Assembly (NCBI RefSeq): GCF_002007105.1
Contig: NZ_MVBC01000014.1
Span: 1 to 64,000, forward strand
Length of the DNA: 64,000 nt
Source: Hymenobacter sp. CRA2
Lineage (GTDB): Bacteria; Bacteroidota; Bacteroidia; Cytophagales; Hymenobacteraceae
Reading direction: 5' to 3'
Shown: in pieces, positions 16,369 to 31,126 of the stretch
Layout of the letters: every line of letters begins with the position of its first letter
Numbering within the stretch: position 1 is the stretch's first letter
The notes under the pieces: model-generated
The model's database searches: none
The model's input: the letters and a program-made list of their open reading frames with translations, nothing else
What the model was told of the DNA's origin: nothing
Translations under genes and position numbers: made by a program

Positions 16369-17142
16369 ATGAAGACCAAACCCGATATTGTCAAGAACTG
16401 GCTGCCCCGCTACACGGGCGTGCCGCTGGAGGAGTTCGGCCAGTACATCCTGCTGACCAACTTCATCAACTACGTGGAGATGTTTGCCAAGCAGTTCGAC
16501 GTGCCCATTCGCGGCCTCGACAAGCCCATGCAGACGGCTACGGCCAACGGCATCACCATCATCAATTTCGGCATGGGCTCCCCCATGGCCGCCACGGTGA
16601 TGGACCTGCTCTCCGCCATCAAGCCCAAAGCAGCTCTGTTCTTGGGCAAGTGCGGCGGCCTGAAGCACAATACCAAGGTCGGTGACCTGATTCTGCCCAT
16701 CGCCGCCATCCGCGGCGAAGGTACCTCCGATGACTACCTGCCGCCGGAAGTGCCCGCGCTGCCCTCCTTCCGCCTGCAGCGGGCCGTGTCGTCGATGATC
16801 AAGAAGTACGAGAAGGACTACTGGACGGGCACGGTATACACCACCAACCGCCGCGTGTGGGAGCAGGACGACAACTTCAAGGAGTACCTGAAGCAGATCC
16901 GGGCCATGGCCGTGGACATGGAAACGGCAACGATTTTCGTGGTGGGCTTCGCCAATGAAATTCCGCACGGCGCCCTGCTGCTAGTATCGGACGAGCCGAT
17001 GACGCCGGAGGGAGTGAAGACGGCCGAGAGCGACAAGAAAGTAACCACCGACTACGTGACGTCGCACTTGCAGATTGGCATCGAGTCCTTGCTGGAGCTG
17101 AAAAACTCCGGCGAATCGGTGAAGCACATGCGCTTCGAGTAG
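16369..17142 (+). CDS. amn: AMP nucleosidase
   Basis: Hydrolyses AMP to adenine and ribose 5-phosphate. The 257-residue protein is the short form, consisting of the PNP/UDP-phosphorylase-like catalytic domain without the N-terminal domain of the long enterobacterial enzyme. Family segments are 'INFGMGSPMAATVMDLLSAI' near 66, 'FLGKCGGL' near 90, 'VGDLILPIAAIRGEGTSD' near 104 and the V-D-M-E-T-A-T motif near 182 for ribose binding. 'SDEPMTPEGVKT' supplies the catalytic Asp. A terminator follows. Confidence 0.9.
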   Translation: MKTKPDIVKNWLPRYTGVPLEEFGQYILLTNFINYVEMFAKQFDVPIRGLDKPMQTATANGITIINFGMGSPMAATVMDLLSAIKPKAALFLGKCGGLKHNTKVGDLILPIAAIRGEGTSDDYLPPEVPALPSFRLQRAVSSMIKKYEKDYWTGTVYTTNRRVWEQDDNFKEYLKQIRAMAVDMETATIFVVGFANEIPHGALLLVSDEPMTPEGVKTAESDKKVTTDYVTSHLQIGIESLLELKNSGESVKHMRFE

Positions 17143-17178
17143 ACGCATTCCGCCCGGACGAATTGCACTTTATTTTGG

Positions 17179-17215
17179 GAGCCTTGGCAGTTGATGCCGA
17201 GGCTCTTCTATTTTT
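17179..17215 (+). terminator. Rho-independent terminator after amn
   Basis: GAGCCTTGGCA (17179-17189) pairs with TGCCGAGGCTC (17195-17205) with one G-T wobble, followed by TTCTATTTTT. Confidence 0.8.
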
Positions 17216-17239
17216 ACCCCTTCTCCTCCACCCTACCCT

Positions 17240-17674
17240 ATGCCCACACCTACTCCTCATTACTTATCCATCGACTACGAAGCCGACGCGGGCCTGCTGG
17301 TGGGCCGCTGGCAGCGGCTGGTGATGCCCTTCGAGCTGCACCGCGGCTACGCCCGCCTGCTCGATGCGGCGGCCGAGCACGCCTGCCGCTACTGGCTTAT
17401 CGATACCAGCCAGCGCATGATTGGGGTGGATGCCACCGACGTGCAGTGGATGATGGATAAGTTCTTTCCGCAGCTGCAGCCGCGCCTGGGCCGCACCACC
17501 TACCTGGCGTATCTGATGGCCCCGCACCAGCTGGCGGGCATGCTCACCGATCGGGCTATGCCCACGATGGATTACTTCGACGGCCGCCCCTACGACCTGG
17601 CGCGCTTCACCCACGAGGAGCAGGCCCGCGCATGGCTGCGGCAGTGTGCCTCCCAGGACGCGCAGGTAGCCTAA
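17240..17674 (+). CDS. Small STAS-like protein, paralogue 1
   Basis: A 144-residue soluble protein, unnamed. It has the layout of a short alpha/beta STAS/SpoIIAA-like domain: a strand with a W (L-V-G-R-W), a helix, the strand Y-W-L-I-D-T-S, then 'DATDVQWMMDKFFPQL', a strand region 'YLAYLMAP', and a closing helix 'FTHEEQARAWL'. The same layout, including a mid-protein D/N-D or D-T strand, a tryptophan-containing helix and the final A-R/E-x-W-L helix, recurs in the genes at 55579 and 56066, so they are probably paralogues. Function unknown. Confidence 0.65.
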   Translation: MPTPTPHYLSIDYEADAGLLVGRWQRLVMPFELHRGYARLLDAAAEHACRYWLIDTSQRMIGVDATDVQWMMDKFFPQLQPRLGRTTYLAYLMAPHQLAGMLTDRAMPTMDYFDGRPYDLARFTHEEQARAWLRQCASQDAQVA

Positions 17675-17703
17675 GCAGCGGCCGCGCTGCGTACCTTCGC
17701 CGC

Positions 17704-19380
17704 ATGATTCGTACGCTCCGCCCGTGGCAGCGGCTGGCCGGCCTGTCGGCCGCCATGTTGCCCCTGCTGGTTGGCCTCACGGCCTGCCCCAGTGCCCAGA
17801 CTTCGGCCGATCTGGTCGTGTACAACGCCACCGTCTACCCCGTGGACTCCGCGTTCAGCAAAGCGCAGGCCTTCGCCGTGCAGGACGGGCAGATTCTGTT
17901 CGTGGGCTCCTCCGACGAGGTGCGCCGCCGCTACAAGGCCCAGGAGCAAGTCGACGCGCACGGCAAGTTCATCTACCCCGGCTTCTACGACGCGCACTGC
18001 CACTTCTACCGCTACGCCCTCGGTTTGCGCGACGCCAACCTAGTGGGCACCGGCTCCTGGAGCGAGGTACTGGGCAAGCTGCGCGCCCAGCGCGGGCAGT
18101 ACCCGCAGGCCGCCTGGCTGACGGGCCGCGGCTGGGACCAGAATGACTGGGCCGTGAAGCAGTTTCCGACCAAAGACTCGCTGGACCGGCAGTTTCCCGA
18201 CGTGCCCGTGTTCATTATCCGCGTCGATGGGCACGCGGCGCTGGTCAACCAGAAAGCGCTGGACCTGGCCGGCGTTACGGCCCGCACGCCCATCAGCGGT
18301 GGCATGATTGAGCGCGACGCGCAGGGCCGCCTCACGGGCCTGCTCGTCGACAACGCGGTGGACCTGGTGTCGGCCAAGATTCCGGAGCCGACACCCGCCG
18401 AAGCGGCCAAGCTGCTCCTGCAGGCCCAGCAGGAATGCGTGGAACTGGGCCTCACCAGCCTCGCCGACGCCGGCCTGGAGCCCGGCCAGATCGAGCGCAT
18501 CGACTCGCTGCAGCAGGCCAAGCAGCTGAAGATCCGGCTGGATGCCATGATCAGCGCCACGCCGGCCAACGTGCAGTACTACCTCAAAAAAGGCCCGTAC
18601 CGCACCGACCGGCTCACCGTCAACTCCTTCAAGGTATACGCCGACGGGGCCCTTGGCTCACGTGGCGCCTGCCTGCTGCATCCTTACTCCGACCGCCCCA
18701 AGCAGACGGGCTTCCTGCTTTCCTCGGTGAAGGAATATCGCGACCTGGCCCAGCGCCTGGCGGCTAGTCCTTTCCAGATGAACACCCACGCCATCGGCGA
18801 CTCGGCCAACCGCCTGCTGCTCGACATCTACGGCGAGGTGCTGCGCGGGCAGAAAGACCGGCGCTGGCGCATCGAGCACGCGCAGGTGGTCAGCCTGGGC
18901 GACGTGGCTAAGTTTCAGCGCTACGGCATTGTGCCCTCGGTGCAGCCCACCCACGCTACCTCCGATATGTACTGGGCCGGCGAGCGGCTGGGCGCCGAGC
19001 GGCTGAAAACCGCCTATGCTTACAAGGACCTGCTGCGCGCCACCGGCCGCGTGGCCCTCGGCTCCGACTTCCCGGTGGAGTACCTCAATCCGCTGTTTGG
19101 CTTCCACGCCGCCGTGGCCCGGCAAGACGCCAAGAATTTCCCCAAGGGCGGCTTTCAGCCCGAAAACGCCCTCACCCGCCAGGAAGCCCTGCGCGGCATG
19201 ACCGAATGGGCCGCCTGGGCTGCCTTCGAGGACGACAAAAAAGGCACCCTGACCAAAGGCAAGTGGGCCGACTTCGTCATCCTCGACCAGGACATCATGA
19301 CCGCCCCGGCCGCCCAACTGCGCGCGGTGAAAGTGCTGGGCACCTACATCCAGGGGGAGAAAGTGCATGGCTCCAAGTAG
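17704..19380 (+). CDS. YtcJ-like amidohydrolase (amidohydrolase family 3), predicted lipoprotein
   Basis: A 558-residue metal-dependent hydrolase with a lipoprotein-type signal ending L-T-A-C, implying an envelope location. Metal and active-site segments of the family are present: D-A-H-C-H-F near 98, 'RVDGHAALVNQKAL' near 176, 'VYADGALGSRGACLL' near 310, 'NTHAIGDSANRLLL' near 360, 'RIEHAQVV' near 390 and 'LGSDFPVEY' near 454. The physiological substrate of this group is generally unknown. ATG 17704 is chosen because the upstream frame overlaps the previous gene. TACCTTCG at 17692-17699 is a near match to the -7 element and would give a very short leader. Confidence 0.88.
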   Translation: MIRTLRPWQRLAGLSAAMLPLLVGLTACPSAQTSADLVVYNATVYPVDSAFSKAQAFAVQDGQILFVGSSDEVRRRYKAQEQVDAHGKFIYPGFYDAHCHFYRYALGLRDANLVGTGSWSEVLGKLRAQRGQYPQAAWLTGRGWDQNDWAVKQFPTKDSLDRQFPDVPVFIIRVDGHAALVNQKALDLAGVTARTPISGGMIERDAQGRLTGLLVDNAVDLVSAKIPEPTPAEAAKLLLQAQQECVELGLTSLADAGLEPGQIERIDSLQQAKQLKIRLDAMISATPANVQYYLKKGPYRTDRLTVNSFKVYADGALGSRGACLLHPYSDRPKQTGFLLSSVKEYRDLAQRLAASPFQMNTHAIGDSANRLLLDIYGEVLRGQKDRRWRIEHAQVVSLGDVAKFQRYGIVPSVQPTHATSDMYWAGERLGAERLKTAYAYKDLLRATGRVALGSDFPVEYLNPLFGFHAAVARQDAKNFPKGGFQPENALTRQEALRGMTEWAAWAAFEDDKKGTLTKGKWADFVILDQDIMTAPAAQLRAVKVLGTYIQGEKVHGSK

Positions 19381-19394
19381 CCCGGCTTATAGCC

Positions 19395-19438
19395 AAGAAA
19401 AAGGCCGCTACCCAACCATGGGCAGCGGCCTTTTTCTT
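19395..19438. terminator. Bidirectional rho-independent terminator
   Basis: Perfect 15-base arms AAGAAAAAGGCCGCT and AGCGGCCTTTTTCTT (19395-19409 with 19424-19438) give a GC stem with A- and T-tracts on either side. It lies between the convergent amidohydrolase and DinB genes, suiting both. Confidence 0.92.
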
Positions 19439-19452
19439 GATGTATGGCCCGC

Positions 19453-19965
19453 TTATTTCTCGTCGGCCGAGGGGCCGTAGATGGCGGGTACCGGAATATC
19501 GAGCAGGCGCAGGTACACCGACAGCTGCCCGCGGTGGTGGATGAGGTGATTGAGCACCAGCACGCGCAGCACGCCGGCGCGCGGCAGCGTGCGCACCACC
19601 TGCTCGCCGCGGCGCATGGCCCAGGAGCTGTGCAGCTGCTCGTCTTCGATGCCGGCAACGACTTGCTGAATGCTGGCGGCGTTGACGTCGAAGCGGCTCA
19701 AGACTTCATCCGTGGTAGTAGCCGGCGTGGGCCACTGCACGGCCGTTATGTCGGTTTCGCTGCCCTGCAAGGAGAGTTCGAGGAAGCCGATGAGGTTGGC
19801 CATGTGCCAGGCCAGCTTGCCGATAGGCATGGATTTGGGGTGCGGGCGCCAGTCGAACTGGTCGGTGGGCACGCGCTCCAGCAGGCGGCGCGTGAGTTGC
19901 AGCTCGGTTTGTAGCTCGGCTGCAAAAGTGGCCTGCAGGGTGGGTTGGGCAGTAGCGGTTGACAT
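19453..19965 (-). CDS. DinB family protein
   Basis: A 170-residue four-helix-bundle protein of the DinB/YfiT superfamily. The three metal-coordinating histidines can be placed in 'KLAWHMANLIGFLE' (near 54) and the C-terminal 'LNHLIHHRGQLSVYLRLL' (near 139-144), with the G-Q-L typical of the family. Members are often metal-dependent thiol transferases or stress proteins; the particular reaction is unknown. The gene is alone, between a terminator and an MFS gene. Confidence 0.85.
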   Translation of the reverse strand: MSTATAQPTLQATFAAELQTELQLTRRLLERVPTDQFDWRPHPKSMPIGKLAWHMANLIGFLELSLQGSETDITAVQWPTPATTTDEVLSRFDVNAASIQQVVAGIEDEQLHSSWAMRRGEQVVRTLPRAGVLRVLVLNHLIHHRGQLSVYLRLLDIPVPAIYGPSADEK

Positions 19966-20049
19966 GGGAGAAAGGGTTATTGACTTGCCTAACCGGCCAC
20001 GCAGCGGAAGGTTGGCAATAGCGGATTGCGGCTACGGCAAGAACAGAAA

Positions 20050-20080
20050 AAAGCCCTGCTTCGGAGTGAAGCAGGGCTTT
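20050..20080 (-). terminator. Rho-independent terminator of the MFS gene
   Basis: The stem AAAGCCCTGCTTC / GAAGCAGGGCTTT (20050-20062 with 20068-20080) has a T-run on the minus strand (complement of the A-run at 20047-20052), just after the stop of the MFS gene at 20096. Confidence 0.88.
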
Positions 20081-20095
20081 CGAAAACGGACCAGT

Positions 20096-21520
20096 CTAGC
20101 GCGTCGCCGGCATACCGACGTTGGGCGTGGCGGACGGCGGAGGCACGGCCGCGGGGCCTTCGGTAGGCTCGTCGCGCAGCTTTTTGCCGCGCAGCGTGAG
20201 CAGGAATACTAGGCCCAGGATGAAGAACACAATCAGCGCCAGGATGCTGTTGCGCATCGAGCCGGTAATCTGGGCGATGTAGCCGAAAGAGAACGTGCCA
20301 ATCACGATGCTGAGCTTCTCGGTCACGTCGAAGAAGCTGAAGAAGGCGGCCGTGTTGGGCGTGTTTTCGGGGATAATCTTGGAATAAGTGCTGCGCGACA
20401 GGCTCTGAACGGCTCCCATCGTCAGGCCAATAACCGAAGCCAGGGCATAGAATGACCAACCGGCCTGCACGTAGTAGCCGGCAATGCAGATCAGGGCCCA
20501 GATAACCACCGACCAGCTCAGCGCCCGCGTATTGCCGATGCGCTCCGAGAGCTTGGCAAACAGGTAAGCGCCGAGGATACCGACGATTTGCAGCAGCAGA
20601 ATGGTGATAATCAGCGCGGTGCTTTCCAGGTGCAGTTCCTTGTCGCCGAAGATGGTGGCCACGTACATCACCGTCTGCACACCCATGTTGTAGGTAAAAT
20701 AGGCCAGCAGGAAGCGTTTCAGGTTGGGCAGGTGCTTGAGCTGGTCCCACACCTTGCCCAGCTCGTGGAAGCCGTTGAGCACCCAGCCCGAATCAGACGT
20801 GGCTGCGCCGGCGGGGCGGCCGGGGTCCTTGGGCAGCGCGGCGAAGGGAATCTGCGCAAAGCCGGCCCACCACACGCCCGTCAGCAGAAAGCCGATGCGC
20901 GTAGCCAGGCCCGTTTCCAGCCCGAACGTCTCGTGGCCCATGATGAGCACCAGGCACATAACCAGCAGCAACACCGAGCCGATGTAGCCCATGGAGAAGC
21001 CGCGGGCCGACAGCGAATCATACTTTTCCTCCGAGCTGATGACGGGCAGGTAGCTATTGTAGAACACGATGGAGCCCGAGAAGCCCACCGTAGCCGAAAT
21101 AAAGATGAAGGTGCTCAGCGTGAGCGTGTCGGGCGTAAACAGGAACAGTGCCGCGCAGGAAATGGCCCCGAGGTAGCAGAAAATCTGCATGAACAGCTTC
21201 TTGCGCCCCGAGAAGTCGGCCAGGGACGTAAGGAACGGGCTGATCAGCGCGATGATCAGGAAGGCGGCCGAAATGGCGTAGGTCAGCAGCGAAGAGCCGG
21301 GCACCTGGTAGCCCAGGAAGCTGACCACGTCGGTTTGCGGGCTGAGTTCTTTGGTGACGCTGCCCCAGTAAATCGGGAAGATGGAGCTGGTAATGACCAG
21401 CGGGTACACGGAGTTGGCCCAGTCGTAGAACGTCCAGCCGCGGGTGATGCGCTTGTCGTCCTTGGGTACGTTTTCAAAGCCCGCGTCGGCCGGGGGGGCT
21501 GCGGGCGTGGCAGTGCTCAT
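20096..21520 (-). CDS. MFS transporter, UMF1/Atg22-like
   Basis: A 474-residue inner-membrane protein with roughly twelve hydrophobic segments. The N-terminal signature 'GWTFYDWANSVYPLVITSSIFPIYW' and the later 'NSYLPVIS...SARGFSMGYIGSVLLL' fit the UMF1 (Atg22-like) branch of the major facilitator superfamily. Some members elsewhere export amino acids or are of unknown substrate. The C-terminus is a Pro/Ala-rich cytosolic tail. ATG 21520 (MSTATPA) is chosen; the longer frame overlaps the PtuB-like gene region and lacks coding features. Confidence 0.88.
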   Translation of the reverse strand: MSTATPAAPPADAGFENVPKDDKRITRGWTFYDWANSVYPLVITSSIFPIYWGSVTKELSPQTDVVSFLGYQVPGSSLLTYAISAAFLIIALISPFLTSLADFSGRKKLFMQIFCYLGAISCAALFLFTPDTLTLSTFIFISATVGFSGSIVFYNSYLPVISSEEKYDSLSARGFSMGYIGSVLLLVMCLVLIMGHETFGLETGLATRIGFLLTGVWWAGFAQIPFAALPKDPGRPAGAATSDSGWVLNGFHELGKVWDQLKHLPNLKRFLLAYFTYNMGVQTVMYVATIFGDKELHLESTALIITILLLQIVGILGAYLFAKLSERIGNTRALSWSVVIWALICIAGYYVQAGWSFYALASVIGLTMGAVQSLSRSTYSKIIPENTPNTAAFFSFFDVTEKLSIVIGTFSFGYIAQITGSMRNSILALIVFFILGLVFLLTLRGKKLRDEPTEGPAAVPPPSATPNVGMPATR

Positions 21521-21596
21521 ATAGCTCGGAAAAGGTGAAGGTGTGGTAGCGGGCAAGATAACGGGAATTGGCCGGGGCGGTTGTGGGCCGTCGAGG

Positions 21597-22430
21597 CTAG
21601 TGGCCCAGCGGCGGCCATAGTTCCGGGAAGTTAGCCCGCACCATGCCGGCGTACTGTTCCGTAGCGTGGGCAGCTTTTCGGTAGTCAAGCCGGGCTTGGG
21701 CTATCTTCCGGCCTAGCTCTTCCTCCGAGCCGTACGTTGCTATCAGCAGCTCCAGGTCCACGACGGGCGGATTATGGTCGAGGATACGCGCCAAGAACTC
21801 CTGGTTCCGCAGACAACGCAGGTAGTCGCGCCGGTAATCAAGCAGCTCTTTACGGTTCAGCCCGTAACCCACTATGGAGGCCCGGCCTTCCGGCGTGTGC
21901 CCTTTGGCTACTTCATCCTCAAAGGTGAGGTGCAAGGTCAGATCAGGCGTCACGGCAGGGTTCAGCAACAGGGGCCGCTCCTGCGTCAGGTCGTCGTGGT
22001 GGGTACGCGCCCGGCCCGCCGGGTCGTTGGCCAGCGGAAACAGCTGATGCTTCCGGATGCGGTTGCAGTCTTCGCAGGCATAGAGCAGGTTGCTCCATTC
22101 GTAGGCCAGCCAGTAGTAGCCGGGGCCCTGCACCAGCGCGGCGGCCGATTGACGGTAGCCGGCTTTGGGCCGGTAGTGCTCCACGTCGCCGGGGCTGCTG
22201 TGGCCGAAGCGGGCTTCGCAGTAGGCGCATTTGCCGTGCTGGTCTTCCTTGAGCCGCGCTTTCACGTCGCGGGCCGCGTAGATGCGCCGCAGGGGCTTCA
22301 GGGCCGGGGTGCCGGGCTGCTGGCAGGCGGCTTCGTCGGCGTCGTAGGTTTGCTCGAGCCGGGCGCGGGCCGCGCCGGCCTCCCGTTGCAGCGAGGCCGG
22401 CGCGACGGGGCTTTTCTGCACCGGAATCAT
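21597..22430 (-). CDS. ptuB: Septu-like PtuB HNH endonuclease
   Basis: A 277-residue nuclease candidate, the effector of a two-gene Septu-like anti-phage module. The zinc-finger HNH motif is clear: C68-x2-C71 (K-C-A-Y-C-E), D82-V-E-H-Y-R-P-K carrying the catalytic His85, and C119-x2-C122-N123 with K/H at 127-128. The segment Y-Y-W-L-A-Y-E-W-S-N-L-L between them is characteristic of PtuB and the related TIGR02646-type proteins. The start codon overlaps the stop of the ATPase gene by four bases (ATGA), implying translational coupling. In known Septu systems PtuB cuts nucleic acid when licensed by PtuA. No retron reverse transcriptase is present. Confidence 0.8.
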   Translation of the reverse strand: MIPVQKSPVAPASLQREAGAARARLEQTYDADEAACQQPGTPALKPLRRIYAARDVKARLKEDQHGKCAYCEARFGHSSPGDVEHYRPKAGYRQSAAALVQGPGYYWLAYEWSNLLYACEDCNRIRKHQLFPLANDPAGRARTHHDDLTQERPLLLNPAVTPDLTLHLTFEDEVAKGHTPEGRASIVGYGLNRKELLDYRRDYLRCLRNQEFLARILDHNPPVVDLELLIATYGSEEELGRKIAQARLDYRKAAHATEQYAGMVRANFPELWPPLGH

Positions 22431-23881
22431 GCGGCGGGCGCGTCGGAAGGGTTGCGGCCCAGCTTCTGCCGCAGCTGTTGCAGCACGGCGTTTACGTCGC
22501 GCTCCGAGGGCGTTTCGCCCAGGGGCTGCTGATCCAGCTCGGCGGTCAACTCTTGCAGGCGCTTCTTTTCGGCGGCCGTGCGGCGGGTTTTGCTGAGCAG
22601 GGCGGCGCGCTCGGCCAGCTTCTCTTCCGTAGCCAGGGAGCGGGCCGTTTCCAGGCCAAACAGTTCACTGGTCATAATCTGGTCGAGGCGCCAGCCGCGC
22701 ACGTCCTCGGGGTTCTGGTGTACTTTGGTCTGGTCGCCCTCGCGTTTGAGCAGCACCACGTTGGCCCCGCCGGGCTGGTCGCCGGCGGCCTGCACCACCA
22801 GCGGGCTGTGAGCGGTAGCAATGAACTGGGTGTTCTTGAAGACGCCGCTGAGGAAGCCAATGAGCTTGCGCTGCCAGCTTGGGTGCAGGTGCAAATCAAT
22901 TTCATCGATGAGCACGATGGCCGGCTCTTCCAGCGGGTTCGGGCTATCAGGGTAGCGGATGAACAGCTTGCTGGCAAAGTCCGTCAGCCACACGACCAGA
23001 GTTTGGTAGCCCAGGCTCATGTCGCGCAGGCGCACCCAATTATCAAAAAGTAGAAATTCTAGATTTATTTGAGGCTTTTGAGGTGTACCGGTTGAGGATA
23101 TGCGCAACTCGGTTACACCTGGAAGAACTTTTTTAAGCATAGATTCAACCAGATTGCGTGCATTTTCTAATTGCTTAGCATTTCCACCTGCCAATCTACT
23201 TCCATAGTCAATATTCAAGAACCATTCTTGAGGATCAAGAAGAGCAGCTCGATCATCGAATAAACTAATATAACTGTCAGAGTTGCCATACACTTCTCCT
23301 ATAGCAGAATTCCCTACTGTGCGACCAGCACCATACCCATAGCAAATTAACCCTAAAGACTTACTATCAACTAAGGAGTGTGCATTATAGACATGATCAT
23401 TAACATAGGTGCAATTTATAGTAGCCATAGTATGATCTGTTGTAGCGTCATAGACATAGCTGCGTGAGAAGTCTTCAAGTCTCTTTCCTGTGCATGCAAC
23501 ATATTTTAGATTTGTAAATTCAGCTCTTTTATTTTCCTCATTGCGCAAAAGCAACCAGTCATGCCTCCAACCATCAAAATAAGATGTTGAGTAATATTCT
23601 GCTTGCCCTACTTTCCTTGCAGTATCTGTTTCAAAGGGTCTCCTACTTGGCATTAATGCTGCAAGGGATTTTAATATTGTTGTTTTACCTACACCATTAT
23701 CACCGAGAATAATAGTCCATTGTGAAGGGACTCCATCGCCTAAATGATCTTCTGTGAATTCTTGATGTCTCACCCCACCTTCGGTAAAGTATATCGTCTG
23801 CTTTTCCCCGAAGCTGCGCACGTTTTCCAGGCTCAGCGAGAGGAAGTAAGCGGGGGGCGGCGCGGTGGTTTTCTTGGTCAT
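22427..23881 (-). CDS. ptuA: Septu-like PtuA AAA/ABC-type ATPase
   Basis: A 484-residue ATPase with an SMC/OLD-like nucleotide-binding fold. Walker A G-D-N-G-V-G-K-T-T is at 60-68, an ABC-type signature M-S-L-G-Y-Q-T at 288-294, Walker B A-I-V-L-I-D-E-I-D at 321-329 followed by L-H-L-H-P (D-loop region), and the switch His in T-A-H-S-P near 358. The C-terminal tail is charged and helical. It is coupled to a PtuB-type HNH gene, so it is inferred to be the sensor/regulator of a Septu-like defence system. The gene is mosaic: codons for about residues 31-281 (23037-23790) are strikingly AT-rich whereas both ends are GC-rich like the neighbours. ATG 23881 is chosen. Confidence 0.8.
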   Translation of the reverse strand: MTKKTTAPPPAYFLSLSLENVRSFGEKQTIYFTEGGVRHQEFTEDHLGDGVPSQWTIILGDNGVGKTTILKSLAALMPSRRPFETDTARKVGQAEYYSTSYFDGWRHDWLLLRNEENKRAEFTNLKYVACTGKRLEDFSRSYVYDATTDHTMATINCTYVNDHVYNAHSLVDSKSLGLICYGYGAGRTVGNSAIGEVYGNSDSYISLFDDRAALLDPQEWFLNIDYGSRLAGGNAKQLENARNLVESMLKKVLPGVTELRISSTGTPQKPQINLEFLLFDNWVRLRDMSLGYQTLVVWLTDFASKLFIRYPDSPNPLEEPAIVLIDEIDLHLHPSWQRKLIGFLSGVFKNTQFIATAHSPLVVQAAGDQPGGANVVLLKREGDQTKVHQNPEDVRGWRLDQIMTSELFGLETARSLATEEKLAERAALLSKTRRTAAEKKRLQELTAELDQQPLGETPSERDVNAVLQQLRQKLGRNPSDAPAA

Positions 23882-23950
23882 AGTAAGAGCAGGTAAGTAC
23901 GAAGCCGGACGGCGCAGCGGCGGCGGTTTCGGAACGAGGCAGGGCTGGGT

Positions 23951-24032
23951 GTAGAGACGCAACCTTGCGTCCCATCGTTGAACGATAACGCCCGCACGGC
24001 GCGGACGAGGAGACGCAAATATGCGTCTCTAC
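23951..24032. repeat. GTAGAGACGC inverted-repeat element
   Basis: Inverted arms GTAGAGACGCAACCTTGCGT (from 23951) and GACGCAAATATGCGTCTCTAC (to 24032, one base shorter core) with a GC-rich middle. A related half-arm occurs near 3240. It lies immediately upstream of the ptuA-like start codon and may contain or disrupt its promoter. Confidence 0.65.
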
Positions 24033-24052
24033 AACTGGCCGGAACTGCATAG

Positions 24053-24091
24053 GCGCCAAAAATAACGGGCCTGCCGGTAGCGGCAGGCCCG
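24053..24091 (-). terminator. Rho-independent terminator downstream of the HU-like gene
   Basis: Perfect stem CGGGCCTGCCG / CGGCAGGCCCG (24066-24076 with 24081-24091). Read on the minus strand it is followed by TTATTTTT, so it should stop transcripts from the HU-like gene before the ptuAB-like module. Confidence 0.85.
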
Positions 24092-24104
24092 TCGGTGGCT
24101 TTTG

Positions 24105-24168
24105 CAAGACATCCTAATGTCTGAGCTAAGACATCGGTATGTCTGAGGCAAGACATTAGGATGTCTTG
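24105..24168. repeat. Palindrome with repeated AGACAT/ATGTCT units
   Basis: Perfect 18-base arms CAAGACATCCTAATGTCT (24105-24122) and AGACATTAGGATGTCTTG (24151-24168), with a third AGACATCGGTATGTCT unit between them. Three short palindromes are therefore nested in one larger palindrome, located 11 bases downstream of the HU-like stop codon. Confidence 0.75.
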
Positions 24169-24179
24169 GCGGAAGCGTC

Positions 24180-24611
24180 CTAGCTTTTCTTCCGGGACGC
24201 CGCCCGAGCCTGGGTGGCGGGCATGGGCGCACTCACCTTGCGCAGCTCGGCGCCCTGCATGGCCTGGTCAAAGAGCTTGCCGGGCCGAAACTGCACCCGC
24301 ACGTTGTTGATAAGGGCCGCGTTGAACTCCTTTTCGGTGGCGGCGCCTTCGCCCTGCAGGCTCACGGAGAAGGAGCCGAAGTCGCCGAAGCGCACGATGC
24401 GGCCGGCGGCCAGCTCCTCAGGCACCGTCTGGAAGAAGGCTTCGAGCACGGCCATCACGTCGATGGTGCTGACGGTGCTCATCTGGTTGATGCGCTCGGC
24501 GATGCCGCGCACGGTGGTGTCGCCCTGCGAGCGGGCCGTGGCGTAGAATTTCTTGGGGTCGTTGGGCCGGGCGGGGTTGCCGCGCTCGGCCAGCGAATAC
24601 TCGATGGGCAT
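24180..24611 (-). CDS. HU-family DNA-binding protein (Bacteroidota HU-HIG type)
   Basis: A 143-residue protein of the large lineage-specific HU-like group. The start M-P-I-E-Y-S-L-A-E-R-G-N-P and 'PKKFYATARSQGDTTVRGIAERI' are typical, and the HU core 'GRIVRFGDFGSFSVSLQGEGA' supplies the DNA-binding arm region. Expected to bind DNA as a dimer in the nucleoid. The minus-strand sequence upstream has TATATTTA (24641-24648), one base off the -7 consensus. It is followed by a palindrome and a terminator. Confidence 0.85.
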   Translation of the reverse strand: MPIEYSLAERGNPARPNDPKKFYATARSQGDTTVRGIAERINQMSTVSTIDVMAVLEAFFQTVPEELAAGRIVRFGDFGSFSVSLQGEGAATEKEFNAALINNVRVQFRPGKLFDQAMQGAELRKVSAPMPATQARAASRKKS

Positions 24612-24721
24612 AGGAAATAAAGATGTTAGAAAGTTGAACCTAAATATATCACCCTCCCGGCACTTCCCACCGCTTCTTACCAGCTTTTCAACTATGTAAC
24701 TAAAGTTGCAAGACTACAGCT

Positions 24722-24890
24722 AGCTCCCCTCCTCAGCTGAGGAGGGGTTGGGGGTGGTTGATGAGATTAAGGTTACTATCCGGCATCAGCACGCGAGATG
24801 TCTCGGCTGCGCTCGACATGACGTTCTGGGTTGAATGTGCTAAACCGGGGTCAACCACCCCTAGCCCCTCCTCAGCTGAGGAGGGGAACT
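24722..24890. repeat. Family B inverted repeat (CCTCAGCTGAGG) enclosing a family A arm
   Basis: Two copies of a CCCCTCCTCAGCTGAGGAGG core, at about 24726 and 24866, are flanked by GGTGGTTGA and TCAACCACC so that the whole is an inverted repeat of about 40-base arms. Between them lies a single arm of another family (GCACGCGAGATGTCTCGGCT, from about 24789). No gene is present in 24612-24936. Confidence 0.75.
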
Positions 24891-24936
24891 AGCCCTAACC
24901 TTAACTCCAGGCTACTCCGCAACAGGGGATATTTAT

Positions 24937-25545
24937 CTATTCCGTGGTTTCGCTCAGCAGCGCGGCGTACTGCTCGGGCGTGTCCACATCGGTGGCGGCG
25001 GGCGGGAAGGATATCAGGGCCAGCTCGTCGCCGAGGCGCTGCAGCAGGGGCTTGGCCCCGGCCGTGGCGGGCAGAGCCAGCAGTTGCGGCCACACCATAC
25101 GCCCAAACACAGCCGGTACGCCTACGGCATCGGCGTAAGTGGTGGCCACGGGCAGGCCGCTCTGCCGCCAGGCCGTCAGCAGCTGGCCCAGCAGCGCGGG
25201 CGTGACGAGGGGCTGGTCGCTGAGCATGACCAGCACGGCGGCGGCTTCGGGAGCCGACTTTTCCACCGCACGCACCCCTACCCCGATGGACGTGCCAATG
25301 CCGGCCTCCCACACGTCGTTGTGCTCCAGCAGCACGGGCAGGTCGCGCACCTCGGCCGCCAGCTCCGCGTGCAGGGCCCCGGTGACCACGACGACGGGCT
25401 GGCAGCCGGCGGCCAGGGCCGTTTCGGCGGCGCGGCGCAATAGGGTGCTGCCCTGGTAGGGCAGCAGCTGCTTGGGCTGGCCCATGCGGGTGGAGGCGCC
25501 CGCGGCCAGCAGTACGGCCGCAATGGGGGGAATAGCTGGGCTCAT
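24937..25545 (-). CDS. mocA: Molybdenum cofactor cytidylyltransferase (MocA-like)
   Basis: A 202-residue nucleotidyltransferase that would attach CMP to molybdopterin for xanthine-oxidase-family enzymes. The N-terminal nucleotide-binding signature A-V-L-L-A-A-G-x-S-x-R-M-G-x-P-K is at 10-25. 'VVVVTGALH' and 'MLSDQPLVTPALL' follow, the latter carrying the metal-binding Asp. The divergent neighbour is a three-subunit molybdenum hydroxylase, which supports the MocA rather than the MobA assignment. A glycosyl/NTP transferase of another pathway is the less likely alternative. Confidence 0.85.
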   Translation of the reverse strand: MSPAIPPIAAVLLAAGASTRMGQPKQLLPYQGSTLLRRAAETALAAGCQPVVVVTGALHAELAAEVRDLPVLLEHNDVWEAGIGTSIGVGVRAVEKSAPEAAAVLVMLSDQPLVTPALLGQLLTAWRQSGLPVATTYADAVGVPAVFGRMVWPQLLALPATAGAKPLLQRLGDELALISFPPAATDVDTPEQYAALLSETTE

Positions 25546-25731
25546 CAGGAAAGGGTGCGAGTGGGTGGAATCGGGGCCTGAACGGAACGAAACGTACGGT
25601 GCTGCGTACGAAGAAAGTTTGCAGCAGGCAATTTCAGAATCTTGCCGACTGGCGCAGCCAAACCGGACGGCGCCGCGTCGGTTTTCTGCCTACGCACCCT
25701 TGTACGTCGATTATTAGCGAAACGCACCGCC

Positions 25732-26373
25732 ATGGACAACGAAATGCCGCCGCAACCTGCCGCCGAGGGCTGCGGCCACAACGAAACCCGCCGTAACTTC
25801 CTGAAGCAGTCATCCTTGCTGACGGCACTGGCGCTGGCACCGGGCCCCATCCTCAAAGCCGCCGAAGCCGAGCTGGACGAAACCGTGGCTGCCGCCTTCG
25901 AGAAAGTACCGCTCAAGCTCGACGTGAACGGCAAGAAATACAAGCTGTCGGTGGAGCCGCGCACCACCTTGCTCGATCTGCTGCGCGAGCAGCTGCACCT
26001 GACCGGCACCAAAAAAGGCTGCGACTACGGCCAGTGCGGCGCCTGCACCGTGCACGTGGACGGCAAGCGCGTGAACAGCTGCCTGACGCTGGCCGTGATG
26101 CAGGACGGCAAGAAAGTCACCACCATCGAGGGCCTGGCCGACGGCGACAAGCTGCACCCCATGCAGGAGGCCTTCCTCAAGCACGACGGCTTTCAGTGCG
26201 GCTACTGCACACCGGGTCAGATCATGTCGGCCGTGGCCTGCATCCGCGAAGGGCACGCCGATTCGGAGGGCGAAATCAAGGAATACATGAGCGGCAACAT
26301 CTGCCGCTGCGGCGCCTACCCCAACATCGTGGCGGCCATTCAGGAAGTGAAAAGCGGCGGTCAGAAAGTTTAA
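25732..26373 (+). CDS. paoA: Tat-exported 2Fe-2S subunit of a molybdenum hydroxylase (PaoA-like)
   Basis: A 213-residue iron-sulfur subunit of a periplasmic aldehyde/xanthine-type oxidoreductase. It has a twin-arginine signal (T-R-R-N-F-L-K-Q-S-S near 20), a plant-type [2Fe-2S] domain with C-D-Y-G-Q-C-G-A-C...C, and a second cluster in the helical domain with C-G-Y-C-T-P-G-Q...C-R-C. ATG 25732 is chosen because it precedes the Tat signal at a usual distance. The FAD and molybdenum subunits follow with gaps of 11 and 7 bases, forming an operon. The subunit is expected to carry the other two across the membrane as a complex. Confidence 0.88.
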   Translation: MDNEMPPQPAAEGCGHNETRRNFLKQSSLLTALALAPGPILKAAEAELDETVAAAFEKVPLKLDVNGKKYKLSVEPRTTLLDLLREQLHLTGTKKGCDYGQCGACTVHVDGKRVNSCLTLAVMQDGKKVTTIEGLADGDKLHPMQEAFLKHDGFQCGYCTPGQIMSAVACIREGHADSEGEIKEYMSGNICRCGAYPNIVAAIQEVKSGGQKV

Positions 26374-26384
26374 AGCGCAGCCCG

Positions 26385-27368
26385 ATGAACCAGTTCCAAT
26401 ACCTACGGCCCACCAAGCCCAAAGCCGCCATCGACGCGCTGGCCCGCGACACCAACGCGCAGTTTATTGCCGGGGGCACCAACCTGCTCGACCTGATGAA
26501 GCGCGGCGTGATGGCCCCGCAGAAGCTCGTCGACATCAACAAGCTGCCGCTCGACAAGATCGAGAAGCAGAACGACAGCCTGCGCATCGGGGCGCTGGCC
26601 CTGAACAGCACCGTGGCCGAGGACAAGCTGGTGCTGGAGCGCCACCCGCTGCTGGCCCAGGCCCTGAACGCGGGCGCTTCGGCGCAGCTGCGCAACATGG
26701 CCACCGTGGGCGGCAACATGCTGCAGCGCACCCGCTGCCACTACTTCTACGACACGGCCCTGCCCTGCAACAAGCGCGAACCGGGCTCCGGCTGCGGCGC
26801 CCTGGAGGGCTTCAACCGCATGCACGCCATCTTCGGCTTCTCCGACAAGTGCATTGCCGTGCACCCCTCTGATATGAGCGTGGCCCTGGTGGCCCTGGAT
26901 GCCGCCGTGCTGGTGAGCGGCCCCAAGGGCGACCGGCGCATTGCCTTCGCCGACTTTCACCGCCTGCCCGGCGACACCCCGCAGAAGGATACCAACCTGG
27001 AGCAGGGCGAGTTGATTACGGCCGTGGAAGTACCCGACAGCCCCTTCACCAAGAACGTGCACTACCTGAAGGTGCGCGAGCGGGCCTCCTACGCCTTCGC
27101 GCTGGTATCGGTAGCGGCGGCCCTGAGCCTGGACGGGCAAACCATCAAGGACGCGCGCCTGGCCATGGGCGGCGTGGCGCACAAGCCCTGGCGGCTCAGT
27201 GAAGCCGAGAAAAGCCTGATCGGCAAGCCGGCAACCGAGGCCACGTTCCGGCAGGCCGCCGACATAGCCATGCGCGGGGCCAAGGCCTTCAAGTACAACG
27301 AATACAAGCTCAAGCTGGCGCCCAACGCCATTGTGCAAGCCCTGAAAAACGCCGCTAGCGTGGCCTAA
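26385..27368 (+). CDS. paoB: FAD-binding subunit of the molybdenum hydroxylase (PaoB-like)
   Basis: A 327-residue subunit that moves electrons from the iron-sulfur clusters to FAD. The FAD-domain loop 'FIAGGTNLLDLMKRG' is near 24 and 'ATVGGNMLQRTRCHYF' near 104. A Cys-rich insert (C-H-Y-F...C-N-K-R...C-G-A...C) fits the extra [4Fe-4S] cluster known for the PaoB branch. It has no signal of its own, in keeping with hitch-hiker export by the Tat-tagged partner. Confidence 0.88.
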   Translation: MNQFQYLRPTKPKAAIDALARDTNAQFIAGGTNLLDLMKRGVMAPQKLVDINKLPLDKIEKQNDSLRIGALALNSTVAEDKLVLERHPLLAQALNAGASAQLRNMATVGGNMLQRTRCHYFYDTALPCNKREPGSGCGALEGFNRMHAIFGFSDKCIAVHPSDMSVALVALDAAVLVSGPKGDRRIAFADFHRLPGDTPQKDTNLEQGELITAVEVPDSPFTKNVHYLKVRERASYAFALVSVAAALSLDGQTIKDARLAMGGVAHKPWRLSEAEKSLIGKPATEATFRQAADIAMRGAKAFKYNEYKLKLAPNAIVQALKNAASVA

Positions 27369-27375
27369 GCTCCCG

Positions 27376-29625
27376 ATGAAAGAACAACTTCTGCAAGACG
27401 GAAAAGCGGTGGGCGACCGGCTCAGCCGCGTGGATGGCCGCCTGAAAGTGACGGGCGCCGCCAAGTACTCAGCCGAATACGAGCTACCGGGCCTGGTGCA
27501 CGGCGTGCTGGTGGGCAGCACCGTGGCCAAGGGCCGCATCACCAGCATCGATACCAAGGCCGCCGAACGCGCGCCGGGCGTGCTGGCCGTCATCACGCAC
27601 CTGAACTCGCCCAAGGTGCCGGGCTTCGCGGCCAAGAGCAACCCCGACGAGCCGCCGACCATCGGGCAGCCGCTGCGCGTGTTCTACGACGAGAAAATCT
27701 ACTTCAACGACCAGCCCATTGCCCTGGTGGTGGCTGACACGCTGGAACGGGCGCGCTACGCGGCCAGACTGGTGAAGACGCAATACGCCGCCGAGCAGCA
27801 CCGCACCAACTTCGAAGCCAACAAAAGCCGGGCTTTTCTGCCCACGCAGGCCAAGCGCAACCCCAAATCGGCGCAAAACGACTACACCCGCGGGCAGGCC
27901 GACGGCTACCAGAACGCCCCGGTGAAGCTCGAGGCTGAGTACGTGCACGAATCGGAGATGCACAACCCCATGGAGCTGCAAAGCATCATCGCGCACTGGG
28001 AAGCCCCCGACCGGCTCACGGTGTACGACAAGGTGCAGGCCGTGAAGGGCACGCAGCGGGCCTTTGCCAAGGACTGGGGCCTGCCCGAGGACCACGTGAA
28101 AGTCATTGCCACCTTCGTGGGCGGGGCTTTCGGCAACGGGCTGCACAACTGGCCCCACGAAACGGCGGCCATCATCGGGGCCAAGGTGACCAACCGGCCG
28201 GTGAAGGTGGTGCTCACGCGCGAGCAGATGTTTACGATGGTGGGCTACCGGCCCAAAACCTGGCAGCGCATCCAGATGGGCGCTACCAAGGACGGGAAAC
28301 TGGTGGGCATCTCGCACGAATCGGTAGGCCAAACCTCGACCTACGAGGAGTTTACCGAGTCGACGGTGCAGCAGACGCGCATGATGTACGCTGCCCCGAA
28401 TGTGAGCACGCGCTACCGCATCCTCGGGCTCGACATCAGCACGCCCATCTGGATGCGCGGCCCCGGCGAAGCCACCGGCGCTTTTGCGCTGGAGTCGGCC
28501 ATCGACGAAATGGCCCACCTGATCGGCATGGACCCGCTGGAGTTCCGCCTGCGCAACCACACCGACACCGACCCGGAAAAGAACAAACCCTGGTCGACGA
28601 AGTACCTGAAAGAGTGCTTTCAGGCCGGCGCCGACCGCATCGGCTGGAACAAGCGGCAGCTCAAGCCCGGCGCCCTGCGCGAGGGCGACTGGCTGGTGGG
28701 CTACGGCATGGGTGTGGGCACCTTCGGGGCCAACCGCGGCTCGGCCAAGGCCCGTGCTGCGCTGCTGGCCGACGGCTCGGTGGTGCTGCAAAGCGCTACT
28801 ACCGACATCGGCCCCGGTACCGGTACGGCCATGGTGCAGATTGCCTCGGATGCCTTGGGCCTGCCTACCGACAAGATTCGCTTTGAGCTGGGCAACTCGC
28901 TGTTTCCGCAGGCGCCTTCGCAGGGCGGCTCCTCCACGGTGAATACCGTGGGCTCGGCCGTGAACGACGCCTGCCTGGCCTTGAAAAAGAAGCTGCAGGA
29001 ACTGGGCGGCACCTCCTTTGCCAACGTGCAGCCCGAGCAACTCACGCTGACGGGCGGGCAACTCGGGCTGAAGGCCAACGGTGGCCCGCGCATGTCCTTC
29101 GCCGATTTGCGCAAAGCCAACAACGGGCAGGACATCGAGGTGACCATTGAGTCGAAGCCCGACGGCTCGACGCGGCAGAACTACTCCATGTACTCCTTCT
29201 CGGTGCACTTCGCCGAGGTGAAGGTGCACACCATGACGGGCGAAGTACGCGTGACCAAAATGGTGTCGTGCGCCGACGCGGGCACCATCGTCAACCAGAA
29301 AACGGCCGGCAGCCAGATGATTGGCGGCGCCATCGGTGGCATCGGCATGGCCCTGACGGAAGGCGCGGTGATGGACGACCGATTCGGCCGCTACGTGACC
29401 AAGGACCTGGCCGACTACCACGTGCCCGTGCACGCCGACGCGCCACCAGTGGAGGTGTTTTTCGTGAACAAGCCCGACACGCTGGTGGACCCGCTGGGCA
29501 CCAAGGGCATCGGCGAAATTGCCATTATCGGCGTGGCCCCGGCCATTACCAACGCCATCTTCAACGCCACCGGCAAGCGCATCCGGGAGCTGCCCATTAC
29601 GCCGGATAAGGTGCTGCTGGCGTAG
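27376..29625 (+). CDS. paoC: Molybdenum-binding catalytic subunit of the aldehyde/xanthine-type oxidoreductase (PaoC-like)
   Basis: A 749-residue catalytic subunit. 'VDGRLKVTGAAKYSAEYELPGLVHGVLV' is the family start. 'VGGAFGNGLHNWPHETAAIIGAKV' is the region binding the molybdenum centre, 'MRGPGEATGAFALESAIDEMA' contains the substrate/active-site Arg segment, and the C-terminal 'GTKGIGEIAIIGVAPAITNAI' carries the catalytic Glu. No XdhC/PaoD-type maturation factor is in the operon. The exact substrate (aromatic aldehydes or purines) cannot be read from sequence. Confidence 0.9.
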   Translation: MKEQLLQDGKAVGDRLSRVDGRLKVTGAAKYSAEYELPGLVHGVLVGSTVAKGRITSIDTKAAERAPGVLAVITHLNSPKVPGFAAKSNPDEPPTIGQPLRVFYDEKIYFNDQPIALVVADTLERARYAARLVKTQYAAEQHRTNFEANKSRAFLPTQAKRNPKSAQNDYTRGQADGYQNAPVKLEAEYVHESEMHNPMELQSIIAHWEAPDRLTVYDKVQAVKGTQRAFAKDWGLPEDHVKVIATFVGGAFGNGLHNWPHETAAIIGAKVTNRPVKVVLTREQMFTMVGYRPKTWQRIQMGATKDGKLVGISHESVGQTSTYEEFTESTVQQTRMMYAAPNVSTRYRILGLDISTPIWMRGPGEATGAFALESAIDEMAHLIGMDPLEFRLRNHTDTDPEKNKPWSTKYLKECFQAGADRIGWNKRQLKPGALREGDWLVGYGMGVGTFGANRGSAKARAALLADGSVVLQSATTDIGPGTGTAMVQIASDALGLPTDKIRFELGNSLFPQAPSQGGSSTVNTVGSAVNDACLALKKKLQELGGTSFANVQPEQLTLTGGQLGLKANGGPRMSFADLRKANNGQDIEVTIESKPDGSTRQNYSMYSFSVHFAEVKVHTMTGEVRVTKMVSCADAGTIVNQKTAGSQMIGGAIGGIGMALTEGAVMDDRFGRYVTKDLADYHVPVHADAPPVEVFFVNKPDTLVDPLGTKGIGEIAIIGVAPAITNAIFNATGKRIRELPITPDKVLLA

Positions 29626-29658
29626 TAGCACGATTGGCCACTGTGTAGACATATGGCG

Positions 29659-29745
29659 CGTCATGCTGAGCTGGTCGAAGCACCTCTACCGAACGATTTC
29701 GTGCGAACGAAGCGGTAGAGATGCTTCGACCAGCTCAGCATGACG
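29659..29745. repeat. Inverted repeat with terminator features (GCTGAGCTGGTCGAAGC family)
   Basis: Perfect 24-base arms (29659-29682 and 29722-29745) containing CATGCTGAGCTGGTCGAAGC, followed by TTCTTTTTTA. It ends the molybdenum-hydroxylase operon and could act as a terminator. A diverged relative lies in 42462-42712. Confidence 0.8.
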
Positions 29746-29792
29746 TTCTTTTTTAGCCCGCATGATAGCCGGCATATAGCAGCCTGCGCGAG

Positions 29793-29800
29793 TATTTTTG
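29793..29800 (+). promoter_or_regulatory. Bacteroidetes -7 element for the CLC gene
   Basis: TATTTTTG matches TAnnTTTG exactly. Its presence means that the TTG at 29798 is promoter sequence rather than a start codon, pointing to the in-frame TTG at 29819. Confidence 0.6.
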
Positions 29801-29818
29801 CCCGCTTTCTATCCGACA

Positions 29819-31126
29819 TTGTCCACCACCGGCCCTACCACCCGGCGCCGCTCCCGCTGGCCCGACCCGCTGCCCCAACTGCTCTACCTACTGCGCTGGC
29901 TGCTGATCTGTGCCGTCGTCAGCGCGTTGGCAGGCACGGCGTCGGCGGGCTTTCTGGTGGCGCTGGACTGGACCACTCGCACCCGCGAAGCGCACCCGTG
30001 GCTGGTGCTGCTGTTGCCGCTGGGCGGTTTGCTGGTGGGTCTGCTCTACCACTATTTCGGCCAGAGCGTGGCCCGGGGCAACAACCAGCTCATCGAGGAA
30101 ATCCACCGGCCGCGCGACGTGATTCCGCTGCGTATGGCCCCGCTGGTGCTGCTGGGTACCCTGCTCACGCACTTGGTGGGCGGCTCGGCGGGTCGCGAGG
30201 GCACGGCCGTGCAAATGGGCGGCGCCCTGGCCGATCAGCTTAGCCGCTGGCTGCGCCCCGGCGAGCGGCGCCTGCTGCTCATTGCCGGTATCAGCGCGGG
30301 GTTTGCGTCGGTGTTCGGCACGCCGCTGGCCGGGGCCGTGTTCGGGCTGGAAGTCTTCCTGATCGGCCGCCTGCGCTACGATGCGCTGCTGGCCAGCCTG
30401 CTGGCCGCTTTCGGCGCCGACTGGGTCACGCGTGCCTGGGGCGTGGGCCACACGCATTACCACGTGCCGGTAGTGCCGGCGCTGTCGGCGGCGGGCGTAG
30501 GCACGGCCTTGCTGCTGGGCCTGCTGAGCGGGCTCACGGCGCGAGGCTTCACGGCGGCGGTGCATGGCATTCAGGGCTGGTTCAGCCGTCGGATTGCGTG
30601 GCCGCCGTTGCGCCCAGTAGTGGGCGGGGCACTGCTGCTGGCGTTGGTGTGGCTGCTGAGCATCAGCCTAGTGCCGGATATCAGACGCTACCTTGGCCTC
30701 GGCGTGCCCACCATTGTGGCCGCGTTCGAAGCGCCCATGCCGTGGTACGGCTTCGCGCTGAAGCTGCTGCTGACTTCGCTCACGCTGGGCGCAGGCTTCA
30801 AGGGTGGCGAGGTGACGCCGCTGTTTTTCATGGGGGCAGCGCTGGGCTCGGCGTTGGCGGTGGTGCTGCCACTGCCGGTGGCTCTGCTGGCGGGCATGGG
30901 CTTCGTGGCCGTGTTCAGCGGGGCAGCCAATACCCCCCTGGCCTGCACGCTGATGGGTCTGGAGCTGTTTGGCCTGCCGGCGGCGCCTTACCTGGCATTG
31001 GCCTGCGTGGTGGCGTATCTGACTTCGGGTCACCGCGGCATCTACGGGGCGCAAGTGGTAGGCGAGGCCAAGCACCTGCGCTACGGCCGCGACTCCGGTC
31101 GGCCCCTCGCGCAGCTGCGCCGGTAA
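29819..31126 (+). CDS. CLC-type voltage-gated chloride channel family protein
   Basis: A membrane protein of about 435 residues with around ten hydrophobic segments. The CLC selectivity-filter segments are present: G-G-S-A-G-R-E-G-T with the gating Glu near residue 120, 'GFASVFGTPLAGAVFGLEV' near 160, and 'GAGFKGGEVTPLFFMGAALGSAL' near 320. Expected to act as a Cl-/H+ antiporter or channel; the GREGT form argues against the fluoride-specific subgroup, though I cannot exclude it. The start is uncertain: no ATG fits, and TTG 29819 was chosen for lying after the promoter element. Confidence 0.85.
   Translation: MSTTGPTTRRRSRWPDPLPQLLYLLRWLLICAVVSALAGTASAGFLVALDWTTRTREAHPWLVLLLPLGGLLVGLLYHYFGQSVARGNNQLIEEIHRPRDVIPLRMAPLVLLGTLLTHLVGGSAGREGTAVQMGGALADQLSRWLRPGERRLLLIAGISAGFASVFGTPLAGAVFGLEVFLIGRLRYDALLASLLAAFGADWVTRAWGVGHTHYHVPVVPALSAAGVGTALLLGLLSGLTARGFTAAVHGIQGWFSRRIAWPPLRPVVGGALLLALVWLLSISLVPDIRRYLGLGVPTIVAAFEAPMPWYGFALKLLLTSLTLGAGFKGGEVTPLFFMGAALGSALAVVLPLPVALLAGMGFVAVFSGAANTPLACTLMGLELFGLPAAPYLALACVVAYLTSGHRGIYGAQVVGEAKHLRYGRDSGRPLAQLRR

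Follow-up and report, generated by a model that had tools for sequence, protein, structure and literature searches.

Block-wise variation in ptuA of a Septu-type pair from Hymenobacter sp. CRA2: a hypervariable AT-rich module within a constant ATPase frame

In type I restriction specificity subunits (HsdS), and in other instances of target-recognition-domain exchange, a recognition part is swapped within a constant frame by way of conserved flanks. A comparable mode of exchange is described here for ptuA, the ATPase gene of a ptuA-ptuB pair in a 64,000-nucleotide stretch of Hymenobacter sp. CRA2 (contig NZ_MVBC01000014.1, positions 1 to 64,000; this whole stretch is called the window). The likeness to HsdS is one of mode, kinship of sequence not being part of the comparison, and the two differ in that the variable part of PtuA is set into the ATPase head, with Walker A on one side and the signature on the other. 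Among described PtuA proteins, that of E. coli Septu (8ee4/8eea) is about 20% identical to the window PtuA over the aligned part, and PtuA/PtuB pairs are also found in type I-A retrons (Ec78/Eco7, Ec83/Eco4). The trigger of PtuAB is marked as unclear in a table of one review (PMC12198126). Diversified sensors in immune proteins are known from bacterial conflict systems where, according to one paper (PMC10907252), mutation is targeted by a diversity-generating retroelement (DGR); in ptuA, by contrast, whole alleles appear to be exchanged and no retroelement was found nearby. No mention of a hypervariable or exchanged PtuA module was seen in the titles or abstract openings of the literature matches listed, which is no claim of its absence from print. 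We consider it fairly probable that the PtuA of this Septu-type pair combines a constant ABC-ATPase frame with exchangeable modules, one of which, V1, would be a phage-recognition cassette exchanged via its conserved flanks.

The window pair differs from the retron pairs in having no reverse transcriptase among the nine neighbour proteins scanned (16369-31126), which have other Pfam domains, and no Rfam match over 19000-27000, a search that RNA families absent from Rfam could escape. Matches to the NCBIfam models for retron Ec78 effectors were all under their cut-offs, and the retron-effector PtuA model gave 132.4 bits against a cut-off of 500. For these reasons the pair is treated as Septu type. 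That the gene is PtuA-like, as a preliminary description of the window had proposed, was borne out by the PADLOC PtuA model PDLC00304 (416.6 bits, residues 28-502 of the longer 511-residue frame). The motifs that we take to be Walker A, signature and Walker B can all be read intact, and the predicted model of the protein matches solved PtuA chains; an earlier model from 22 alignment rows, with a predicted local distance difference test score (pLDDT) of 49.8, was not used. PtuB scored 39.9 bits against NCBIfam TIGR02646, under the cut-off of 52.15, and had no match in Pfam. Anti-phage activity is a predicted role of the pair.

A family search of 204 genomes gave some match in 74 and a close ptuA in 22, namely the window gene (L001) and 21 relatives in one other genus, Hymenobacter; none of seven other genomes of the strain's own genus had one. 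A first genome scan with a single-protein query found no relative, and no second close relative was present in 150 genomes of the phylum Gemmatimonadetes. In the 22 close genes V1, which runs from the Walker A helix to the YGYGAGR block, has 82-127 codons and a mean pairwise identity of 0.17 (range 0.07-0.72), as against 0.91 for the N block, 0.89 for Walker A and 0.91 for the C block. It is AT-rich in all 22, with a GC content at third codon positions (GC3) of 0.20-0.40 versus 0.62-0.90 in the C block. By the change-points, the AT-rich part begins at residues 59-71, where the Walker A helix ends, in 16 genes; it begins upstream of Walker A in L001, L003, L009, L013 and L017, and further inside in L022. 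The right border lies at most about ten residues from a conserved block (YGYG, SLFDD, EWFL or WVRLRDM) in 18 genes and within a second variable part, V2, in L004, L007, L008 and L011. V1 alone gave nothing convincing against Pfam (four families, one member each, best E 0.0023) or the PDB (antibody chains at E >= 0.042, judged to be chance).

V1 is hypervariable in other genera as well. Seven Flavobacterium genes (L164 of that genus was left out) have identities of 0.88 in the N block, 0.94 in Walker A, 0.26 in V1 and 0.90 in the C block. V1 and C-block identities are 0.18 and 0.88 both in six genes from genus g16 (L079, L081 and L082 among them; one gene is a fragment) and in twelve of genus g33, where V1 ranges from 0.03 to 0.85. 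GC3 is lower in V1 than in the C block in 6/6 g16 and 11/12 g33 genes, with a V1 mean of 0.28 in both genera and C-block means of 0.44 and 0.47. Among 17 distant genes with a V1 of 50-125 codons (a set without L032, L054, L066 and L067, that is, a duplicate genome, an in-frame stop and two fragments) the V1 value is the lower one in 13 and the higher one in 2, with no difference in the other 2.

When the genes were compared block by block, the nearest relative was found to change along the gene: V1 of L006 is closest to that of L007 (76% DNA identity) and its tail, V3, to that of L009 (87%). Distances in V1, V2 and tail were mutually uncorrelated, and the tail followed PtuB (rho 0.83, Mantel p 0.002); the values for this link elsewhere, rho 0.94 in four Flavobacterium genes and 0.50 in three distant ones, come from too few genes to count. 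V2, C-block and tail or PtuB data rejected each other's trees (p-AU <= 2.5e-5, approximately unbiased test, AU). Tail data rejected the PtuB tree weakly (p-AU 0.016; p-SH 0.50, Shimodaira-Hasegawa test, SH), and PtuB data rejected the tail tree by AU (3.7e-7) and not by SH (0.32). A comparison of trees for ends and centre had been proposed in the preliminary description; the trees of the other blocks do conflict, V1 itself being too divergent for a tree test. The clearest case of exchange lies outside Hymenobacter, in L079 and L082 from two species of g16, whose DNA is 96.3% identical along a 1370-bp piece that stops at the Walker A helix. Their V1 parts cannot be aligned, identity from the YGYG-SLFxDN block to the gene end is 0.84-1.00 per 15-codon window, and the BLAST piece that continues beyond the gene is 83.7% identical. 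A V1 profile run over the 204 genomes found 22 places, one for each ptuA used to build it and none elsewhere, so that within the limit of the profile the exchange partner is likely another cell's ptuA. These comparisons show that recombination exchanges the centre of such ptuA genes and leaves their ends in place.

Exchanged V1 alleles could also serve as a contact for another PtuA, for PtuB or for a private partner instead of sensing phage, and the tail is an example of a PtuA part that can co-vary with a partner. Since V1 co-varied neither with PtuB (rho 0.05) nor with the tail (rho 0.06), this role is regarded as unlikely.

The AT-rich centre of the window gene, placed at 23037-23790 by the preliminary description, is real, and its stated borders are off by a few bases at most. 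When GC3 was searched for change-points, the segment came out at 23039-23794, residues 30-281 counted from the ATG at 23881, and the frame is open throughout, both borders included, as had been claimed. GC3 is 0.26 inside and 0.84 outside, with a log-likelihood gain of 87.0 versus at most 7.6 in 30 codon shuffles (done for L001 and L003 only). Overall GC, for which a sliding window was run as well, amounts to 0.385 in the segment, against 0.647 in 22430-23038 and 0.609 in 23795-23881. As a control, 455 kb of the same genome (20 stretches besides the window) were sampled for mechanically called open reading frames (ORFs) between 300 and 1500 aa, longer ones being skipped. In the 185 ORFs obtained, the ptuA break ranked first, followed by gains of 57.2 and 27.5, with a 99th percentile of 32. 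Walker A lies inside the AT-rich segment, signature and Walker B outside. GC3 of the Walker A block is 0.12 in the window gene and 0.17 in L003, the remaining 20 genes having 0.42-0.83, while the protein sequence of the block is 71-92% identical to the 21 relatives; the contrast is therefore synonymous and not purely driven by amino acids. A longer loop before Walker A is found in the window gene and L003 only. Peculiar to the window gene is that the AT-rich part covers Walker A, at this strength otherwise only in L003, and extends to the WVRLRDM block.

The preliminary description had taken this composition to suggest that the centre was replaced. If the centre of this gene had come in recently from an AT-rich organism as a one-off replacement, this would suit the sharp borders and an AT-richness of codons that extends to the conserved Walker A, where 20 of 21 relatives do not equal it. 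However, every one of the 22 close genes has an AT-rich centre, as have, relative to the C block, nearly all of those from g16 and g33, so AT-richness is a property of the module and no evidence of foreign origin; a shared composition in relatives had been named beforehand as evidence against the swap, and the composition argument for a single event fails. Moreover, no AT-rich donor was found in order or class genomes or in plasmid or phage records, V1 similarity is bound to the genus, and L003 and the window gene have in common a V1 that is old and under constraint (dN 0.49, dS 2.03, nonsynonymous and synonymous divergence). Such an event is accordingly improbable. The earlier interpretation is partly supported: genes of this kind do exchange their centres by recombination with the ends kept, and one particular replacement in the window gene is not upheld. 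Recurrent exchange rests on evidence independent of composition.

The second-strongest GC3 break in the genome sample was seen outside the window, in the ORF L213:15476-17164 (+), at about 79476-81164 of its own contig C5 (0.46 inside, 0.88 outside). In this mechanically called ORF, residues 172-350 match the Pfam MmeI target recognition domain and residues 512-560 an O-methyltransferase dimerisation domain; it may hold a further AT-rich recognition module, again in a defence protein.

About as improbable as a one-off replacement is fast evolution of an exposed region in place, by positive selection or lost constraint and with no exchange. A weak pattern in V1, with a nearly invariant W and an invariant R, suggests that the copies are homologous, which would be in keeping with such a course. 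Against it, dN/dS in V1 is 0.20 in L006/L007 and about 0.24 in L001/L003, which is purifying selection in both V1-sharing pairs computed; positive selection as the sole cause was rejected on these values. Synonymous divergence (pS) is also raised inside (V1 0.72, YGYG block 0.81, V2 0.77 vs 0.47 in the N and 0.49 in the C block), the borders between the near-identical flanks of L079/L082 are abrupt, and the trees of the other blocks conflict. Targeted hypermutation of the ptuA centre, for example by a DGR, has a precedent in targets reported from bacterial conflict systems (PMC10907252) and is very improbable here, as no reverse transcriptase stands among the nine neighbour proteins, the V1 profile hits only the gene itself in its own genome (no whole-genome search for a template at the DNA level was made), and V1 varies widely in length.

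Exchange of V1 as a putative phage sensor could work as follows. V1 is a hypervariable subdomain, strand-rich in the model, with many alleles per genus, which, as comparison showed, pass between species, presumably with the conserved flanking codons as sites of homologous recombination; V2 varies independently, and the tail travels with its PtuB. V1 would recognise a phage trigger, binding would be relayed to the adjacent ATP site, and the ATPase, via the tail, would release or activate the HNH nuclease PtuB, so that exchange of V1 would alter the recognition target with engine and effector unchanged. We give slightly less than an even chance to a wider reading, that the PtuA proteins of this clade act as allelic immune receptors, with a genus-wide V1 pool shuffled by homologous recombination independently of V2 and the PtuB-matched tail, and with recognition and killing inherited separately. 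If so, a compact two-gene nuclease system would diversify its recognition via allele exchange, as restriction specificity subunits do. The size of the pool in the Hymenobacter group may be put very roughly at about 220 alleles by Chao1 arithmetic (22 genes, which at a threshold of 70% identity fall into 20 singletons and one pair). A module replaced wholesale beside a constant engine and effector marks a place to seek the PtuAB trigger and offers natural swap constructs, phage range being predicted to follow V1 if V1 is the recognition part; the link of tail and PtuB marks the partner interface.

Several observations weigh against V1 as an exchanged recognition cassette or narrow its reach. 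Three other PtuA clades are much less variable at V1, with V1 and C-block identities of 0.50 and 0.72 in Hymenobacter type 2 (3 genes), 0.69 and 0.80 in a third clade (7 genes) and 0.38 and 0.75 in the one enteric pair compared. Unlike the Hymenobacter genes, the chromosomal ptuAB of E. coli, found in 180/5426 genomes at >=80% coverage, is nearly uniform, 11 full carriers among the matches listed being 99.5-100% identical and three of them having 91% coverage in two pieces. Recognition via V1 can therefore not be assumed for all Septu systems. Weak correlations remained between N block and PtuB (rho 0.29, p 0.016) and between V2 and C block (rho 0.27). The dS of L001/L003 is close to saturation, and the higher synonymous divergence inside may partly reflect composition, its contrast being weak in Flavobacterium. 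Model confidence for V1 is modest (block means 54-86), and the V1 profile would be blind to a spare cassette unlike the 22 known V1. A donor of the AT-rich centre was found in none of 390 order or 395 class genomes, where long matches outside the family were only 24-32% identical and higher values were confined to short conserved stretches. Finally, matches between V1 parts stay almost wholly within a genus, being found at E <= 1e-3 in 33/305 within-group pairs versus 2/1291 cross-group pairs (57 of 63 genes, the six without locatable borders left out).

The search for a source of the AT-rich alleles also covered 97 plasmid and 7 phage records, in which all matches were below 60% (the best listed for plasmids was 30% over 84% of the protein), and a viral scan (49 loci), with a best long match of 31%. 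A V1 pool common to several genera was rejected for the sampled genera by the cross-group count. The lack of a donor and the genus-bound V1 make a steady inflow from Flavobacterium or other low-GC genera less likely and favour alleles that persist for long within each genus. In the account that we prefer, V1 alleles would be too different to recombine internally and would remain near an AT-biased mutational balance; alternatively, their lasting AT-richness could stem from an AT-rich pool outside the sampled genomes.

The transporter gene downstream of ptuAB has a relative in at least 15, and the MobA-like gene upstream in at least 11, of 17 other loci compared. Four of seven congeners have the MobA-like and transporter genes without ptuAB, and for the remaining three the 12-kb stretch yielded the transporter only; congener G003 has about 40 bp in place of 23909-21585. 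It follows that ptuAB is gained or lost as a unit at this site, while its internal modules exchange separately.

Table 1. Features of the ptuAB locus in window coordinates.
Feature	Position	Strand	Remarks
ptuA, ABC/SMC-like ATPase of Septu-type pair	22427..23881	-	484 aa from ATG 23881; TTG start at 23962 possible
ptuB, HNH endonuclease	21597..22430	-	PADLOC PDLC00339, 249.7 bits; 4-base overlap with ptuA end
Constant N-terminal block, GC-rich	23795..23881	-	residues 1-29; N block 91% mean pairwise identity, 22 genes
AT-rich central segment, residues 30-281	23039..23794	-	GC3 0.26 vs 0.84; change-point, shuffles, genome control
Walker A GDNGVGKTT	23678..23704	-	strongly AT-rich codons in window gene and L003 only
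V1 hypervariable module, 103 aa	23345..23653	-	17% mean pairwise identity in 22 genes; strand-rich in model
Semi-constant block CYGYGAGR..SLFDD	23231..23344	-	71% mean identity; AT-rich right border of several relatives in or near block
V2, EWFL-WVRL part, few types	23039..23230	-	no correlation with V1 or tail
Constant C block	22718..23038	-	91% mean identity; signature MSLGY 23006-23020, Walker B AIVLIDE 22901-22921
V3 tail	22430..22717	-	co-variation with PtuB, rho 0.83
ptuAB presence/absence unit	21585..23909	-	extent from comparison with empty site of congener G003

Immediately upstream of ptuA and close to the edge of the ptuAB unit, an imperfect inverted repeat with 36-nt arms, 78% complementary and built on GAGACGCAA..TGCGTC, was seen at 23943-24040. 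Between ptuA and a HU-like gene, 24106-24171 holds three 22-nt tandem copies of AAGACAT..ATGTCT, 68-77% identical to the first, inside an inverted repeat with 30-nt arms. In E. coli, 653 genomes match the ptuAB query beside smrB (L260), the 180 mentioned above keeping >=80% of it; 29 weaker ones among the matches listed retain only about the last 225 bases, the ptuB end, in a deletion-like manner. Matches to the N-terminal end of ptuA only were found at G117:C211:7894-8019, G028:C2:263328-263492, G1453:C55:249266-249340 and G231:C1:5331695-5331775, in short open frames of 33-113 codons, and are possible remnants after loss of ptuA.
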